From Geothrix oryzae (GTDB lineage Bacteria; Acidobacteriota; Holophagae; Holophagales; Holophagaceae): DNA of 64,000 nucleotides. The number at the start of each line of letters is the position of its first letter. Position 1 is the stretch's first letter. Below, piece by piece: positions 5,551-46,642 of the stretch. The stretch is taken from positions 2,914,001 to 2,978,000 of the forward strand of contig NZ_AP027079.1 of NCBI RefSeq assembly GCF_030295385.1, read 5' to 3'. Position numbers and translations under genes: made by a program. Below the pieces are notes generated by a model, which was not told where the DNA came from, made no database searches, and worked only from the letters and a program-made list of their open reading frames with translations.

Positions 5551-5923
5551 GGTTCGCTCCAGATGCAGTTGGCGGAACCTTCTATGGACGACACGCGGCG
5601 ACATGAGACGATGCTGCGTGCCCTAAGCAAAGACGGTAGAGCCTCCGGAACCTCGGCCCCGGAGAAGGGGATCAGTAAAGGGTCTGAGGAGGAATGCCAC
5701 CCGCAGGCGCACCGATGGCCCCTCCCCCACCCATCGGCGGAAGGAGCGGCCCAGCAAGGTGATTGGCGCTGCGGCGGGAGGTTGTTCGCAACCAGGAGCC
5801 TTTGAAGAGGCATCGACCACCCGGGATTCGGGCGGAAGGAATAATCGTACCATGTCCAGACAAAATCGCAAAGCGCAAGGTGCGAAACGCACCCTACGCT
5901 TTGCGTTAGTGCTGTAAGAAAAA
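5551..5923 (-). other. Long rplL-rpoB intergenic leader without a gene
   Basis: These 373 bases separate rplL from rpoB. I find no convincing coding frame; open frames here are short and lack similarity. The rplL-proximal end holds a strong nested stem-loop (separate entry at 5867-5905). A long rplL-rpoB gap with RNA structure is known in other bacteria, where part of transcription is attenuated so that polymerase subunits are made at a lower level than L7/L12; the same role is inferred here. Confidence 0.6.
5867..5905 (-). promoter_or_regulatory. Nested stem-loop between rplL and rpoB (attenuator or processing site)
   Basis: An outer 9-bp perfect stem (CGCAAAGCG at 5867-5875 with CGCTTTGCG at 5897-5905) encloses an inner 6-bp stem (5879-5884 with 5888-5893, AAA loop on the plus strand). 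In the direction of transcription it is followed by ATTTTG, only a weak U tract, so partial termination or an RNase III-like cut are both possible. Confidence 0.6.
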
Positions 5924-6301
5924 CTACTTGACCTCGACCTTGGCGCCGGCGGCCTCGAGCTTTTCCTTGATCTTGCCAGCCTCGTCCTTCGAGATGCCTT
6001 CCTTGACGGCCTTGGGAGCGCCGTCGACCAGGTCCTTGGCTTCCTTCAAGCCCAGGCCGGCGACGATCTCGCGGACGGCCTTGATGACATTGAGCTTGTT
6101 GGCACCGGCCTCGGTCAGGATGACATTGAACTCGGTCTGCTCTTCGGCAGCGGCGGCCGGGGCGGCACCGCCAGCGGCGGGAGCGGCCATGGCGGCAGCG
6201 GACACGCCGAAGCGGTCCTCGAGGGCCTTGACCAAGTTGGCCAGGTCAAGGACGGTCATGGTTTCGATTTCAGCGATGAGCTGATCGGCAGTGAGAGCCA
6301 T
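5924..6301 (-). CDS. rplL: 50S ribosomal protein L7/L12
   Basis: A 125-residue stalk protein that recruits translation GTPases. The N-terminal dimerisation part ([15 protein letters not shown]) is joined by an Ala/Gly-rich hinge (about residues 38-52) to the C-terminal factor-binding domain (EKTEF-type block [13 protein letters not shown], then [16 protein letters not shown]). Length is normal. The MALT start was chosen over a four-codon longer frame because it matches the family. It sits 55 bases after rplJ, as usual, so that L10 and L12 are made from one message. Confidence 0.97.
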
Positions 6302-40788: not shown

Positions 40789-41019
40789 CTACCGCAGCAG
40801 GTCCCGGATGGCCGCCACCGTGGGCACATGGCCCTGGCTCTTCACGACGCCATCCACCACGAGGCCGGGTGTGGACATCACGCCCCGGGCCACGATGTCC
40901 GGGTACTCGGTGACCTTCACCAGCGTGAAGTCCACGCCCAGCCCCTTCGCGGCCTCCTCGGCCCGTTCCGCCAGCAGCTTGCACTTGGCGCAGCCGCTGC
41001 CCAGCACTTCGATCTTCAT
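40789..41019 (-). CDS. Small thioredoxin-like protein (redox-active disulfide protein)
   Basis: A 76-residue thioredoxin-fold protein with the redox motif GSGCAKCKLL (CxxC) near the N-terminus and cis-Pro STPGLVVDG. It matches the archaeal/bacterial 'redox-active disulfide protein 2' type, which is typically coupled to DUF318 permeases, as here. GGAGGTTCC precedes the ATG. It closes the second arsenic unit and may reduce substrates or partner proteins of it. Confidence 0.85.
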   Translation of the reverse strand: MKIEVLGSGCAKCKLLAERAEEAAKGLGVDFTLVKVTEYPDIVARGVMSTPGLVVDGVVKSQGHVPTVAAIRDLLR

Positions 41020-41027
41020 GGAACCTC

Positions 41028-42101
41028 CTATAGCAGCGCGTTGAACAGGAACCCCACCAGCACGATGCCCCCGGCGACGATGCCCAGGAAAGTGCCCAGC
41101 AGCCGCGGCTTCAGCACCTTCCGCAGGATGACCGTCTCCGGGAGTGAGAGGCCCGTGACGGCCATCATGAAGGCCAGGGCCGTGCCCAGGGCGGCGCCCT
41201 TGGCCAGCAGCACCTGCACGATGGGGATGATGCCGGCGGCGTTGGCGTAGAGGGGCACGCCGATGAGCACGGCCAGGGGCACGCTCCACCAGGCGGACTT
41301 GCCCATGAAGCGGGCCAGCAGCTCCGCCGGAGCGTAGCCGTGCAGGAAGGCGCCCACGGCGATGCCCGCCAGGACGAAGGGCCAGACCTTCCCGACGATG
41401 TCCTTCGTCCCCTGGAGCGCCAGGTCGAGGCGCTTGGCGAAGCCCATGGATGCGTCGGCGGCCTGGGAGGCTTCGAAGGGGATCTCCATCACCCAGGGCT
41501 CCAGGTGGCGCTCCAGGCGCAGCTTGCCGATGATCCAGCCCGAGAGGAAGGCCACGGCCACGCCCGTCACCGCATAGAGCAGCGCGATGCGCCAGCCGAA
41601 GAGGCTCAGCAGCAGGAACAGCGACACCTCGTTCACCATGGGCGCCGAGACCAGGAAGCTGAAGGTGGCCCCCAGGGGGACGCCCACGCGCACGAAGCCG
41701 ATGAACAGCGGCACCGCCGAACAGGAGCAGAAGGGCGTGGCGATGCCCAGCAGAGCCGCCAGCAGGTTGCTCCAGGCCCCGGTGCGCCGCGCCAGCAGGT
41801 CGCGGGTGCGCTCCGGGCTGATGAAGGTCTGCACGAAGGTCACGCCCAGCACTACGGCGCCCAGCAGCATCAGGACCTTGGGCGCGTCGTAGGCGAAGAA
41901 GGCCACGGCCTCCCCCAGGCGGCTGCCAGCCCGCAGGCCCAGGGCCCGGAAGGCCAGCCCATCGGCCAAGGGCTTGAGGGCGAGGTAGAGGGCGATCCAA
42001 GCCGGGAGGGCGGCCAGGAGCCACCCTCCCGATTTCCAGAACCCGCCCCCCGGAGCCGGGGTGGGCGCGGCGCAGGCACAGCCTTTCGAGTCCACGGTCA
42101 T
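41028..42101 (-). CDS. DUF318/ArsP-type permease
   Basis: A 357-residue permease with about ten hydrophobic segments. The family motif ATPFCSCSAVPLF (CSC) and the second-half SLPETVILRKVLKP block are clear; ArsP members export methylarsenite and aromatic arsenicals, others transport different ions. Its position right after arsM (7 bases) supports export of methylated arsenicals. The N-terminus CACAAPTPAPGGG holds two further cysteines. It is followed by the small thioredoxin-like gene. Confidence 0.8.
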   Translation of the reverse strand: MTVDSKGCACAAPTPAPGGGFWKSGGWLLAALPAWIALYLALKPLADGLAFRALGLRAGSRLGEAVAFFAYDAPKVLMLLGAVVLGVTFVQTFISPERTRDLLARRTGAWSNLLAALLGIATPFCSCSAVPLFIGFVRVGVPLGATFSFLVSAPMVNEVSLFLLLSLFGWRIALLYAVTGVAVAFLSGWIIGKLRLERHLEPWVMEIPFEASQAADASMGFAKRLDLALQGTKDIVGKVWPFVLAGIAVGAFLHGYAPAELLARFMGKSAWWSVPLAVLIGVPLYANAAGIIPIVQVLLAKGAALGTALAFMMAVTGLSLPETVILRKVLKPRLLGTFLGIVAGGIVLVGFLFNALL

Positions 42102-42108
42102 CTCCTCC

Positions 42109-42960
42109 TCATCCGCAGCAGCTGGGCGCGCAGCAGGCCTTCACGGTCCTGGTGGCCTCCACCTGGACGCTGAGCACCGAGCTGGCCAGGCGTTCCAGCT
42201 CCTCGGGGCTCATGCCGGGGTAGCGGCGCTTGGCCAGGTCCATGAGCTCGGGCGACAGTTCCGCGAGGCCAAAGCAGCGTTCGGCGGCCACGGTCACCCC
42301 CTCGAAGCCCGCGGCGCGGATGGCGGCCAGATAGTCGTCCTTGAGCATGGCGCCGGACACGCAGGCCGCGTAGGCATCCATGTCCGACCGCAGGGCCTCG
42401 GGCAGGGGCCGGGCCAGCACCAGGTCGGACACCTGGAGGCGGCCGCCGGGCTTCAGCACGCGGAAGGCCTCGCGAAACGCTTTTGCCTTGTCCGTGGTGA
42501 GGTTCACGACGCAGTTGGAGAGGATGACATCCACGGTGGCGTCGGCCACGGGCAGGGCTTCGATGTCGCCCAGGCGGAACTCCACATTCGCGTAGCCGTG
42601 CGTCTTCGCCAAGGTCGTGGCGCGGGCGATCATCTCCGGCGTCATGTCCACGCCGAGCACCCGGCCCTCGGGGCCCACGCGCCGGGCGGCCAGGAAGGCA
42701 TCGAAGCCCGCGCCGGAGCCCAGATCCAGCACGGTCTCGCCGGGCTTCAGCGCGGCCAGGGCCACGGGGTTCCCGCAGCCCAGGCCCAGGTTGGCGCCCT
42801 CCGGCACAGCGGCAAGGTCCTTGGCGTCGTAGCCCAGGTCCAGGCTCGCGTCGCCGGGCGCGCAGCCGCAGGAAGTGGATGGACCACAGCAGCCTTGGTT
42901 GTTCTTCACGAAGCCGGCGTAGCGGTCGCGCACGGCGGATTTGATGGTTTCGGGTTCCAT
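42109..42960 (-). CDS. arsM: Arsenite methyltransferase
   Basis: A 283-residue SAM-dependent ArsM. The SAM-binding motif VLDLGSGAGFDAFL is intact, and the three As-binding cysteines are in place: C62 (LGLGCGNP), C150 (SNCVVNL) and C200 (CVSGA). Extra cysteines sit at the N-terminus (CCGPSTSCGC) and as a C-terminal CCAPSCCG tail, which may bind As(III) or glutathione-like partners. ATG start at MEPETIK follows the ArsR stop by 67 bases. It would convert As(III) to methylated and volatile species. Confidence 0.92.
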   Translation of the reverse strand: MEPETIKSAVRDRYAGFVKNNQGCCGPSTSCGCAPGDASLDLGYDAKDLAAVPEGANLGLGCGNPVALAALKPGETVLDLGSGAGFDAFLAARRVGPEGRVLGVDMTPEMIARATTLAKTHGYANVEFRLGDIEALPVADATVDVILSNCVVNLTTDKAKAFREAFRVLKPGGRLQVSDLVLARPLPEALRSDMDAYAACVSGAMLKDDYLAAIRAAGFEGVTVAAERCFGLAELSPELMDLAKRRYPGMSPEELERLASSVLSVQVEATRTVKACCAPSCCG

Positions 42961-43027: not shown

Positions 43028-43363
43028 TCAGTCCCTGCGGCAGCAGGGCGAAGGTTGGGGGTCGTCCGCCGCGCCACCGGCGCAGCAGTCCTGCCAGAGG
43101 TATTCGGTCAGCGCCCGCAGCACACCGTAGTCGGCGCGGTAGCGGAGCGTGGTGCCTTCCCGGGCCACCCGCACCAGGCCGGCGTCGGCGAGGGTGGCCA
43201 GGTGATGGCTGAGGGTGGAACCCGGAATGTCCAGGCGCGACTGCAGCTCTCCGGCGGGCGTCCCCGCCTCGGGGCCCTGCACCAGGCGGCGCAGGATGGA
43301 CAGGCGGACGGGGTGTCCGAGGGCCTTCAGCCGCTCTGCCGCCTGTTCCACACGCCCGGTCAT
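43028..43363 (-). CDS. arsR: ArsR family arsenic-type repressor with C-terminal CC pairs
   Basis: A 111-residue winged-helix repressor: ERLKALGHPVRLSILRRLV and PGSTLSHHLATLADAGLV. The As(III) site is not the alpha-3 CxC of classical ArsR; instead the C-terminus holds vicinal cysteines C93-C94 and C107-C108. This is an ArsR variant with a C-terminal site. GGAGGAAACC decides the ATG. A palindrome at 43414-43435 is its likely operator. It heads the arsM-permease-thioredoxin unit. Confidence 0.86.
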   Translation of the reverse strand: MTGRVEQAAERLKALGHPVRLSILRRLVQGPEAGTPAGELQSRLDIPGSTLSHHLATLADAGLVRVAREGTTLRYRADYGVLRALTEYLWQDCCAGGAADDPQPSPCCRRD

Positions 43364-43413: not shown

Positions 43414-43435
43414 AATTTCGATTTTTTTCGAAATT
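43414..43435. promoter_or_regulatory. AATTTCGA-N6-TCGAAATT operator-like palindrome
   Basis: Eight-base arms with a six-T spacer, between arsC and the second arsR, about 50 bases upstream of that arsR start. The sequence resembles TTCGAA-type ArsR operators; it also overlaps the arsC stop and could act as the operon end. Confidence 0.6.
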
Positions 43436-43866
43436 CATGAAATCCAGCCCCGTTCCCTGCCCAGGGCCTCCAGTCGGCGGGCGATCTCGTCGCGAGCGGC
43501 ACGGAAGCGGGCCCGCAGATCCTCAGGCGTGAGCGAAGGGTCCTCAGATGTGGAATCGGCGGCCGGGTCGGGGATGGGCCAGTGCAGGCGCTCCGCCCGG
43601 CCCAGGAAGGCGGGGCAGACCTCTTCGGCGCAGAGGGTGATGACCAGATCCACCGTGGCCGGATCGATGTCCGACACGGGCTTCGAAGTGTGCGCCGCCG
43701 CGTCGATGCCCCGCTCGGCCAGCGCCTCGAGGGCGTAGGGGTTCACGCGGCTGGGCCGGCTGCCGGCGCTCTGAATGCGGAAACCCGGGAACAGCTGGCG
43801 CGCCAGGCCCTCGCCCAGCTGGGACCGGGCGCTGTTGGCCACACAGAGGAAGAGGATCGAGGTCAC
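43435..43866 (-). CDS. arsC: Arsenate reductase (thioredoxin-coupled, LMW-PTP fold)
   Basis: A 143-residue enzyme reducing arsenate to arsenite. The P-loop [12 protein letters not shown] (Cys8, CX5R) and the redox pair C79/C84 (LCAEEVCP) are present, the mark of the thioredoxin-linked class. The GTG start is used. It is the last gene of the first ars unit; arsN ends 11 bases upstream. Confidence 0.93.
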
Positions 43867-43876
43867 CGCGGCTCCT

Positions 43877-44359
43877 TCACAGCATCCGCTCCCAGAAGCC
43901 CACATCCACCCAGGCACCGAACTTCCAGCCTGCCTCGGTCATGTGGCCCACCTTCTTGAAACCGAGCTTCTCGTGCAGGCGCACGCTGGGATCGTTGGGC
44001 AGGCCGAGACAGCCCAGGGCCGAGTGGAAGCCGCGGTGCTTGAGCTCCGCCAGCAGCGCCTCGTAGAGCGCGGCACCCCGTCCCTTCCCGTGGTGGCCCT
44101 GGGCCAGGTAGACGGTGGTTTCCACGGCGAAGCGGTAGGCGTGCCGGGTCCGCCAGGTCGAAGCGTAGGCGTAGCCCAGGACCGCGCCATCCTCCTCCCA
44201 CACGAGCCAGGGATAGGTGGCCGTCACCTTGGCGATGCGCGCCCCCATCTCCGCCACCGAGACGGGTTCCTCCTCGAAGGTGATGAGGGTGTCGCGCACA
44301 TAGGGGTTGTAGATGGCGGCCAGGGCCGGGGCGTCGGTGGGCTGAACCGGGCGGATCAT
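43877..44359 (-). CDS. arsN: GNAT acetyltransferase, ArsN-like
   Basis: A 160-residue N-acetyltransferase of the phosphinothricin/arsinothricin family: [40 protein letters not shown] and the acetyl-CoA loop [15 protein letters not shown]. In an ars operon this type is ArsN, which acetylates the arsenic antibiotic arsinothricin. The start overlaps the rhodanese-like stop by four bases (ATGA). Context supports the arsenic role; substrate remains inferred. Confidence 0.82.
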
Positions 44360-44769
44360 CGATGGCCTTTCCGGGGGCGCAGGACGCAGGGGCATGCCCC
44401 GTGGAGGAGCGCCGCCGTGTCCGTTGCCACGGGCTGACCCTCCTGGTCCCAGAGGAGCATGCCGCCGTTGAGGCAGGCCACCTGGGCGAAGCCGTGGTCG
44501 AGCAGCAGGTGCGCGGCCTCCTTGGTGTAGACGCCGGCGCTGTCGGCCAGGAGCAGGGGCCGGTCCGCCGGCAGCTCGGAGAGCAGGCCGGGGAGCTCTT
44601 CATGGGGGATGCGGATCGTCTCGGGCACCTGGAAGGCCTTCATCTCCGCCAGTTCGTCGAGGCGGAGGTCCACCAGCAGGGCGCCCTCATTGAGCGCGGC
44701 CAGCGCCTCCTTCGGCGCGAGGAACCGCAGTCCCTGGATCACCATGCCCTTGCCATCGAAGGTGCCCAT
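44356..44769 (-). CDS. Rhodanese-like protein with missing catalytic Cys
   Basis: A 137-residue rhodanese-fold protein: ALLVDLRLDELAEMKAFQVP and the active-site loop region LLLADSAGVYTKEAAHLLLDHG. Where active enzymes have C-x-x-x-x-R the loop reads ADSAGVYT, so the catalytic cysteine is absent. A C-terminal CPC (C126, C128) offers another thiol site. It overlaps arsN (4 bases) and follows acr3 by 3 bases. A sulfurtransferase role is unlikely; arsenic binding is possible. Confidence 0.72.
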   Translation of the reverse strand: MGTFDGKGMVIQGLRFLAPKEALAALNEGALLVDLRLDELAEMKAFQVPETIRIPHEELPGLLSELPADRPLLLADSAGVYTKEAAHLLLDHGFAQVACLNGGMLLWDQEGQPVATDTAALLHGACPCVLRPRKGHR

Positions 44770-44772
44770 CTC

Positions 44773-45879
44773 TCACCTCTTGTCGGGTTCCGTCGCGGGT
44801 CCGGCGGCCGGGCAGCAGGTGACGCCGGAGATCGCCTCTGCGCTGGCCGGGTACCACTTCTTCTTCAACCAGAAGGCCACGCCCACCAGGCTGATGAGCA
44901 CGGGCACTTCCACCAGCGGCCCGATGACGGCGGCGAAGGCCGCCCCGTGGGCGATGCCGAAGGTGGCCACGGCCACGGCGATGGCCAGCTCGAAGTTGTT
45001 GCTGGCGGCCGTGAAGCTCAGGGTCGCGCCCTGGGGGTAGTCGGCTCCGGCCTTCTTGGACAGCCAGAAGCTCACCAGGAACATCACCACGAAGTAGATC
45101 AGCAGCGGGATGGCGATGCGGATGACATCGAAGGGCAGCTTCACGATGGTGTCGCCCTTGAGGCTGAACATCACCACGATCGTGAACAGCAGGGCCACGA
45201 GCGTCAGCGGGCTGATCTTCGGCACGAAGACCCGGTGGTACCAATCCAGCCCCTTGGCCTTCCCGAGCATGAAGCGCGTGAGGAAGCCGGCGATGAAGGG
45301 AATGCCCAGGTAGATGAAGACGCTCTCGGCGATCTGGCCGATGGTGATGTGGACCACCGCGCCCTGGAGGCCCAGCTTCGCGGGCAGCACCGTGGCGAAG
45401 AACCAGGCGTACACGCTGAAGAAGAGCACCTGGAAGATGGAGTTGAAGGCCACGAGCCCCGCGCAGTACTCCGTATCGCCCTTGGCCAGGTCGTTCCACA
45501 CGATGACCATGGCGATGCAGCGCGCCAGGCCGATGAGGATGAGGCCCAGCATGTATTCGGGCCGGTCGCGCAGGAACAGCACGGCCAGCCCGAACATGAG
45601 CAGGGGTCCGATGATCCAGTTCTGGAGGAGCGACAGGCCCAGCACCTTCTTGTTCCGGAAGACCAGGTGCAGCTCCTCGTACTTCACCTTGGCCAGGGGC
45701 GGATACATCATCAGGATCAGGCCGGCGGCCAGCGGCAGGCTGGTGGTGCCCACATTCCAGGCATTGATGGCGCGGTTGAAGCCGGGCACGGCGAAGCCCA
45801 GCAGCACGCCGAGCCCCATGGCCAGGAAGATCCACAAGGTGAGGTACCGATCGAGGAAGGACAGCCGACCCGTGGACAT
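44773..45879 (-). CDS. acr3: ACR3-type arsenite efflux transporter
   Basis: A 368-residue ten-segment transporter. The conserved cysteine is in GLARCIAMV (C121), and the conserved Glu in [13 protein letters not shown]; both are required in Acr3. The C-terminus has an added Cys-rich tail ([10 protein letters not shown]) typical of some families. AAGGAGGTGTCC decides the ATG. It is the pump of the locus and belongs to the ACR3(1)-like group rather than ArsB. Confidence 0.94.
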
Positions 45880-45903: not shown

Positions 45904-46239
45904 CTACTTGCAGTCGCAGTCGTCGCCGCAGTCGCCCTTCTGGCCCCCGGCCTCTTCGCAGGCGCAGGTGCCGCCGCAGCAGCCGCCGCCCTCGCCGACC
46001 AGCGCGGTCTGGGCCAGGGCCATGATCTGCGAATGGGGATCGCCCTTCACACGGAGGGCCATGTTCACCGCTTCGATCATGTCGTCGTTGGACACGCCGA
46101 GCTCCGTCAACCGGGCGTGGTGGGCGCGGAAGGCCCGCTCGGCGTTGGCGCCGATGGCCGCCCCCAGGGCGATGAGGTTGAGGGTGGTCTCGCCGAGGCC
46201 GGCCTCGGTGGCGGCTTCGGTCTGGGGCTGGGCGGTCAT
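45904..46239 (-). CDS. AhpD-like protein with Cys-rich tail (arsenic-locus associated)
   Basis: A 111-residue protein. Residues 19-80 resemble the carboxymuconolactone decarboxylase/AhpD fold (NLIALGAAIGANAERAFRAHH, then GVSNDDMIEAVNMAL), but the peroxidase CxxC is replaced by AxxA (A33, A36) while the following His40 is kept. The C-terminal 25 residues add seven cysteines (GGGCCGGTCACEEAGG and CGDDCDCK). The core is thus probably a scaffold and the tail an As(III)-binding or metallochaperone-like module. Its start overlaps the arsR stop by four bases, and acr3 begins 24 bases downstream. Function unproven. Confidence 0.7.
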   Translation of the reverse strand: MTAQPQTEAATEAGLGETTLNLIALGAAIGANAERAFRAHHARLTELGVSNDDMIEAVNMALRVKGDPHSQIMALAQTALVGEGGGCCGGTCACEEAGGQKGDCGDDCDCK

Positions 46240-46625
46240 GCAGGCTCCTTGGGGGTTCGTGAGGGGGGACAGGCAGAGGGATCGCAGGTCTCGCAGCGCA
46301 GGGCGAGGGCCTGGGCCCGGTCGCGGGCCAGGTCGGCTTCGGCCCCGGCCATGAGGGGCCAGAGGGCCTCCAGCAGGGGCGCCGTGGCGGCGGCGTCGGC
46401 CAGGGCCACATGGACCCAGCGGCCCACCTTCCACTCGCGCACCAGACCCGTGCGGCGCAGGCCGGTCAGGTGTTCGGATACGGTGGACGGCGCCAGACCG
46501 AGCACCTCGGCCACCTCGCAGACGCAGAGCTCCCCCGCATGGAGCAGCGCCAGGATGCGCAGGCGCACGGGGTGGGCGAGGGTCTTGAGGGTATCCACGA
46601 GGGGACGGAGGGGGTCGGATGTCAT
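46236..46625 (-). CDS. arsR: ArsR family arsenic-type repressor (classical CxC)
   Basis: A 129-residue repressor with the alpha-3 arsenic site GELCVCEVAEVLGLAPSTVSEHL (C34, C36) and an additional cysteine cluster near the C-terminus (C111, C114, C119). It is the first gene of the first ars unit. Its stop overlaps the next start (ATGA). A TTTCG-N8-CGAAA repeat spans the start codon region, a candidate operator. It would derepress the unit on As(III). Confidence 0.92.
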   Translation of the reverse strand: MTSDPLRPLVDTLKTLAHPVRLRILALLHAGELCVCEVAEVLGLAPSTVSEHLTGLRRTGLVREWKVGRWVHVALADAAATAPLLEALWPLMAGAEADLARDRAQALALRCETCDPSACPPSRTPKEPA

Positions 46626-46642
46626 TTCGCTATTTCCCGAAA
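46625..46642. promoter_or_regulatory. TTTCG-N8-CGAAA repeat at the arsR start
   Basis: TTTCG (46625-46629) and CGAAA (46638-46642) form a short inverted repeat directly upstream of and touching the arsR start codon, in the divergent arsR/peptidase gap. Weak but well placed. Confidence 0.35.

Follow-up and report, generated by a model that had tools for sequence, protein, structure and literature searches.

This locus raises the question of what a small protein resembling the CMD/AhpD family can be doing in an arsenic resistance operon when the redox motif of that family is missing and a dense run of cysteines is found at its C-terminus. The gene, here called CMD-Cys, was analysed in its setting in a 64,000-nucleotide stretch of Geothrix oryzae DNA (the window). 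Its ATG overlaps the stop codon of arsR1 (ATGA) and acr3 is the next gene downstream; the layout given in the original prediction, i.e. coupling to arsR followed by acr3, was therefore confirmed, for acr3 by a profile match. The island continues with the order arsR1, CMD-Cys, acr3, rhodanese, arsN1b, arsC-like, arsR2, arsM, arsP and a small thioredoxin-fold protein (Table 1); arsA is absent from it. Terminal thiol motifs set the island apart from its surroundings: a CC or CxC lies at most 30 residues from a terminus in 7 of 9 island proteins (ArsR1 being counted by its sensor site, not by a tail) versus 0 of 65 window proteins outside the island.

Table 1. Features of the CMD-Cys locus in the G. 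oryzae window, and related fusion genes in other loci (L numbers)
Feature	Position	Strand	Basis or setting
CMD-Cys, 111 aa: CxxC-less CMD/AhpD-fold domain and Cys-rich tail	45904..46239	(-)	Sequence, Pfam, predicted structure
Codons of A33-E-R-A36, equivalent in position to the AhpD CxxC (C130/C133 of 1knc)	46132..46143	(-)	Sequence, alignment, structural offset
Cys-rich C-terminal tail, residues 85-111: CC-GGT-C-A-C ... C-GDD-C-D-C (two CxxxCxC units)	45907..45987	(-)	Sequence, Cys statistics, dN/dS
arsR1, ArsR/SmtB repressor, CVC sensor-type motif (ELCVCEV)	46236..46625	(-)	Profile match
TTTCGGGAAATAGCGAAA, inverted repeat resembling an operator; overlaps the arsR1 start codon and is conserved across the genus	46625..46642	(-)	Pattern scans, alignment
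acr3, ACR3-family arsenite efflux transporter, C-terminal CC	44773..45879	(-)	TIGR00832, 450 bits
Rhodanese-domain protein, C-terminal CPC	44356..44769	(-)	Domain match
arsN1b, arsinothricin-resistance type acetyltransferase	43877..44359	(-)	NF040504, 227.6 bits, cut-off 210
arsC-like, low-molecular-weight phosphatase type arsenate reductase, under curated cut-off	43435..43866	(-)	Profile match
TTTCGAAAAAAATCGAAA, the other operator-like repeat, before arsR2	43416..43433	(-)	Pattern scans
arsR2, ArsR/SmtB repressor, two CC pairs near the C-terminus	43028..43363	(-)	Profile match
arsM, arsenite methyltransferase, CC motifs at both ends	42109..42960	(-)	PRK11873, 330.7 bits
arsP-family permease, N-terminal CxC	41028..42101	(-)	PF03773, 228.7 bits
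Small thioredoxin-fold protein (Thioredoxin_3, GCAKC), adjoins arsP	40789..41019	(-)	PF13192, 89 bits
ArsD-CMD fusions, CxxC kept, most with CC-ending tails	L009:6456-7082, L030:5731-6342, L123-L130, L136		ars operons, Acidobacteriota and phylum of G396

The similarity of the core to CMD/AhpD proteins was examined at the levels of sequence and predicted structure. Against Pfam PF02627, CMD-Cys scores 20.1 bits (E = 6.6e-4), under the cut-off of 23; an unlinked relative in L027 (Geothrix rubra) passes with 23.5 bits, and the sister domains fused to ArsD (described below) reach 28–38 bits. An AlphaFold2 model, computed from a 29-sequence alignment, has a confident helical core (pLDDT >90 for residues 21–60). 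The best Foldseek matches of this model in the PDB belong without exception to the CMD/AhpD family (probability about 1.0, E only 0.05), and a structural aligner gave Z = 8.6 with 3bey (rmsd 0.8 over 53 residues) and Z = 8.3 with RclX (7y4r). The predicted structure agrees with a sequence match that is itself sub-threshold and supports a CMD helical fold, so that the core likeness claimed at the outset withstood this check.

Structural alignment pairs residues 12–66 of CMD-Cys with 109–163 of Mycobacterium tuberculosis AhpD (1knc), at equal length. By this offset E118, C130, C133 and H137, which we take to be the working residues of that enzyme, correspond to N21, A33, A36 and H40. Three of the four (Glu118, Cys130 and Cys133) are lost in CMD-Cys; the equivalent of His137, H40, is kept and is invariant in the family alignment. 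The A33-E-R-A36 stretch and the retained His40 are exactly as originally described, and the proposed loss of the redox site was borne out, with the Glu118 position lost in addition. Neither cysteine of the CxxC is present in any of the 46 family members. The Glu118 position carries His in the rubra clade and still carries Glu in genera other than Geothrix; the CxxC may therefore have been lost before the Glu. Judging from these residues, CMD-Cys is probably catalytically dead as an AhpD and peroxidase function is not expected.

The seven cysteines attributed to the C-terminus (C87, C88, C92, C94, C104, C108 and C110) are all in place within the last 25 residues, and they are conserved and under selection. 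The Geothrix-type tail follows the pattern CCGGxCxCE...KGDCGDDCxC, with cysteines that are near-invariant across 41 relatives; in six of these relatives the tail unit is duplicated, which brings the total to ten Cys. Tails from the other genera vary in their details and retain the CxC style and 7–8 Cys. Pooled Nei-Gojobori dN/dS in the near clade is 0.65 at the N-terminus, compared with 0.159 in the core and 0.164 in the tail, i.e. the tail is under selection as strong as that on the core; in a clade without ars neighbours the values are 0.29 for the tail versus 0.17 for the core (five sequences). Among 274 predicted proteins drawn from the window and the retrieved loci, a density of 7 Cys per 25 residues is reached by the CMD-Cys family alone, the next protein having 4; these statistics, together with the near-invariance in relatives, rule out a chance run of Cys. 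Selenocysteine read-through of TGA in relatives was also considered and set aside, the flagged TGAs lying at or just past the normal ends. In the AlphaFold2 model the tail has pLDDT <60 and is predicted to be disordered.

A first scan identified 29 Holophagaceae relatives, nearly all from Geothrix, and one more distant match. A survey of 396 Acidobacteriota genomes yielded further relatives, and the family now comprises 46 distinct Holophagaceae proteins: 41 are of the Geothrix type and 5 come from other genera. The gene order in Geothrix is ApbC, TrkA, (KefB, M28 peptidase, arsR1) CMD-Cys (ars genes) TyrA, DUF2461, SOD, Dps, rubrerythrin, where the bracketed segments are variably present and the site of CMD-Cys is fixed with or without the island. 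In counts affected by some contigs ending close to CMD-Cys, 31 of the 41 Geothrix copies directly follow arsR1 (with the ATGA overlap in the near clade), 33 have some ars gene downstream and 27 have acr3 within 4 kb, most of them in the order arsR-CMD-acr3. The linkage to ars genes that had been expected of homologues is thus common, but it is not general: no ars neighbour is present for 7 of the 41 Geothrix copies or for any of the 5 from other genera, and these copies still possess at least seven Cys. Unlinked homologues were among the results that the original prediction had named as refuting it. An exclusive role in arsenic resistance is accordingly not supported.

In the protein tree of the family, which is built on a short protein and weakly resolved, the basal branches are the other genera and an unlinked clade of five proteins (support 0.92). 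For this reason the ars linkage looks younger than the tail, and an origin of CMD-Cys inside an ars operon is not favoured. Every checked genome with an unlinked copy encodes acr3 at another locus, in an operon that lacks CMD-Cys, which rules out that these organisms had simply lost arsenic resistance. No plasmid relatives of CMD-Cys were found; there are weak CMD matches on plasmids, and the one examined has catabolic-looking, not ars, surroundings.

Regulation was approached through a TTTCG-N8-CGAAA repeat present before both arsR genes of the window. An alignment of the upstream regions of 31 loci shows the copy before arsR1 to be conserved apart from slight variation. When the whole genome was scanned allowing at most one mismatch, three sites were found: before arsR1, before arsR2 and one elsewhere. 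According to a reversed-pattern control the third is at chance level, and the two arsR sites alone exceed chance. In 618 kb of Geothrix loci every one of the 47 sites is found at the same fixed distance ahead of arsR1 or arsR2, although they are not all independent because the set combines overlapping genome sets and includes some genomes twice. No such repeat was found before the unlinked CMD-Cys copies in the loci scanned. Since the repeat is essentially confined to sites before arsR1 and arsR2, CMD-Cys of G. oryzae is very probably in the same transcription unit as arsR1 and under ArsR control. In one relative (L007, about 5770–5930) arsR1 is missing and its promoter-like stretch apparently still precedes CMD-Cys.

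CMD domains are tied to arsenic genes in a second form, as sister domains fused to the arsenite chaperone ArsD in arsRDA-acr3 operons of two phyla. In three Geothrix loci (L009, L011 and L017) CMD-Cys is followed by a protein that unites an ArsD domain with a CxxC-bearing CMD domain, and then by ArsA; both domains of the fusion (PF06953 and PF02627) score over their Pfam cut-offs. Such fusions also occur in other Acidobacteriota (L065, L066 and L075) and, with CC-ending tails, in 8 of 195 genomes from the phylum of G396 (whose record carries the label Deltaproteobacteria), a ninth having a partial copy. In that phylum they lie in ars operons with arsA, mostly with acr3 or arsC in view. These fusions connect the branch of the fold to which CMD-Cys belongs with arsenite trafficking. 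One of them (L064:5482-6054) has no CxxC (SDQA in its place) and retains the CC tail, which suggests that the CMD fold can serve without redox chemistry; because its CMD domain falls outside the CMD-Cys clade, CxxC has apparently been lost at least twice, independently, in CMD domains. In L068, ArsD, CMD and ArsA are encoded by separate neighbouring genes. No description of the ArsD-CMD fusion was found in the open-access papers searched, where absence is not proof; a search for ArsD with carboxymuconolactone decarboxylase returned one unrelated match only.

Our best explanation, offered tentatively and with a nearly even chance of being right, is that CMD-Cys has become a catalytically dead CMD scaffold whose thiol tail serves to buffer As(III), in this strain under the control of ArsR, and perhaps soft metals in general. 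Its function would have moved from the dead CMD/AhpD domain to the thiol tail, whose two CxxxCxC units, carried on a flexible arm, would be cytosolic binding sites for As(III) or a comparable soft metal ion. Arsenite would lift ArsR, CMD-Cys would be made together with ArsR1 and Acr3, and the protein, possibly as an oligomeric scaffold, would hold free arsenite until export or methylation. Probably, CMD-Cys was at first an independent metal-buffering gene that was then taken into an ArsR operon in most Geothrix. The ligand for which the tail is selected may be other than arsenite, because the unlinked, operator-less copies keep at least seven Cys.

The main rival to buffering of As(III) is a general soft-metal buffer (for Zn, Cu, Cd or Fe), that is, a metallothionein-like tail on a CMD scaffold with no preference for arsenite, which came to lie beside ars genes mostly through the accidental landing of an island. 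The constancy of the chromosomal site, whether or not the island is there, is in its favour, as are the unlinked copies devoid of the operator and the occurrence of the same tail type in other genera, where the gene adjoins nitrogen or regulator genes. However, the preponderance of copies directly behind arsR1 (31/41), the ATGA overlap in the near clade and the fusion of sister domains to ArsD all argue against an accidental neighbourhood, and we consider this rival rather unlikely. The same fusions, and the arsR-CMD-acr3 order seen in most copies with acr3 nearby, would instead fit a dedicated chaperone docking on Acr3 and handing arsenite over to it, as ArsD does to ArsA. This had been the function proposed originally, and the comparison of genomes does not support it: acr3 operons elsewhere in the family, including those of the genomes with unlinked copies, do without CMD-Cys, some CMD-Cys copies have no acr3 nearby, and the three Geothrix loci mentioned above hold both CMD-Cys and an ArsD-CMD protein with ArsA. 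A hand-over to Acr3 is in our judgement improbable.

Arsenate reductase, rhodanese and ArsM need thiol reductants, and the Cys pairs of the tail could in principle substitute for the CxxC and pass electrons to one of these proteins. AhpD proteins are known biochemically to act in thiol redox reactions, an arsC-like gene and arsM are in the same island and a thioredoxin-fold protein is encoded nearby. A redox role is nevertheless improbable in view of the loss of the Glu and of both active Cys, the predicted disorder of the tail and its maintenance in copies without any ars enzyme nearby. Finally, CMD-Cys might act on ArsR1 itself, by stripping As(III) from it or by co-repressing with it; ArsD has been reported as a weak second repressor (PMC6205960). 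The pairing of arsR1 with CMD-Cys is retained with no acr3 within 4 kb in five loci (L020, L022, L023, L026 and L029; the contig of L022 ends soon after the gene), as modulation of ArsR1 would lead one to expect. Unlinked copies, however, have no arsR1 partner at their locus and, to our knowledge, the CMD fold has no DNA-binding role, which makes this the most remote of the readings considered.

Four known systems come closest to CMD-Cys. With the CMD/AhpD family (PF02627; 1knc, 3bey, TM1620 1vke and RclX 7y4r) CMD-Cys shares superposable core helices and the second active-site His, but it lacks the CxxC and the catalytic Glu and has gained a Cys-rich tail. It resembles ArsD (PF06953) in being a small ars-operon protein with vicinal thiols and in having CMD sister domains fused to ArsD, whereas its fold is different, no PF06953 match was found in it with Pfam and its island has no arsA. 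An AhpD domain is likewise tied to an arsenic protein in NF041537 (arsenite methyltransferase/AhpD domain selenoprotein), the AhpD part of which CMD-Cys matches weakly (18.2 bits); that protein, listed in a review as an ArsM-AhpD domain selenoprotein, has CxxU in its CMD domain (PMC13188914) and is fused to ArsM, in contrast to the free, CxxC-less CMD-Cys. Dense CxC and CC motifs are reminiscent of bacterial metallothioneins, but no sequence relation to these was found and the Cys of CMD-Cys all lie in a tail of 25 residues attached to a folded domain. A more general proposal, which we regard as unlikely, is that CMD-fold rings with multi-Cys tails make up a class of their own among proteins that carry or store arsenite, with a free form that lacks CxxC (the CMD-Cys family) and an ArsD-fused form in which CxxC is either kept or lost. 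Such rings would display a large number of thiols together and supply Acr3 or ArsA.

When a CMD-family gene lies near ars genes, it is annotated as peroxidase-like and given no further attention. The CMD-Cys family is evidence of at least one lineage that has lost the redox site and in which the thiol tail is the selected part. The ArsD-CMD fusions tie the fold directly to arsenite trafficking in a way that can be tested, and may prove the observation of wider use; cultured Geothrix strains are available. Two further proteins were noted in the course of the analysis. An ArsD protein in L134 (1375-1830) keeps the CC-rich tail and lacks the CMD helices that surround the CxxC. A third CMD paralogue of Geothrix (L070:6122-6403, L071:5868-6152 and L072:5429-5713), located away from ars genes, has an intact CxxC and a short Cys tail, and in L071 and L072 it adjoins a gene for an ECF-type sigma factor.
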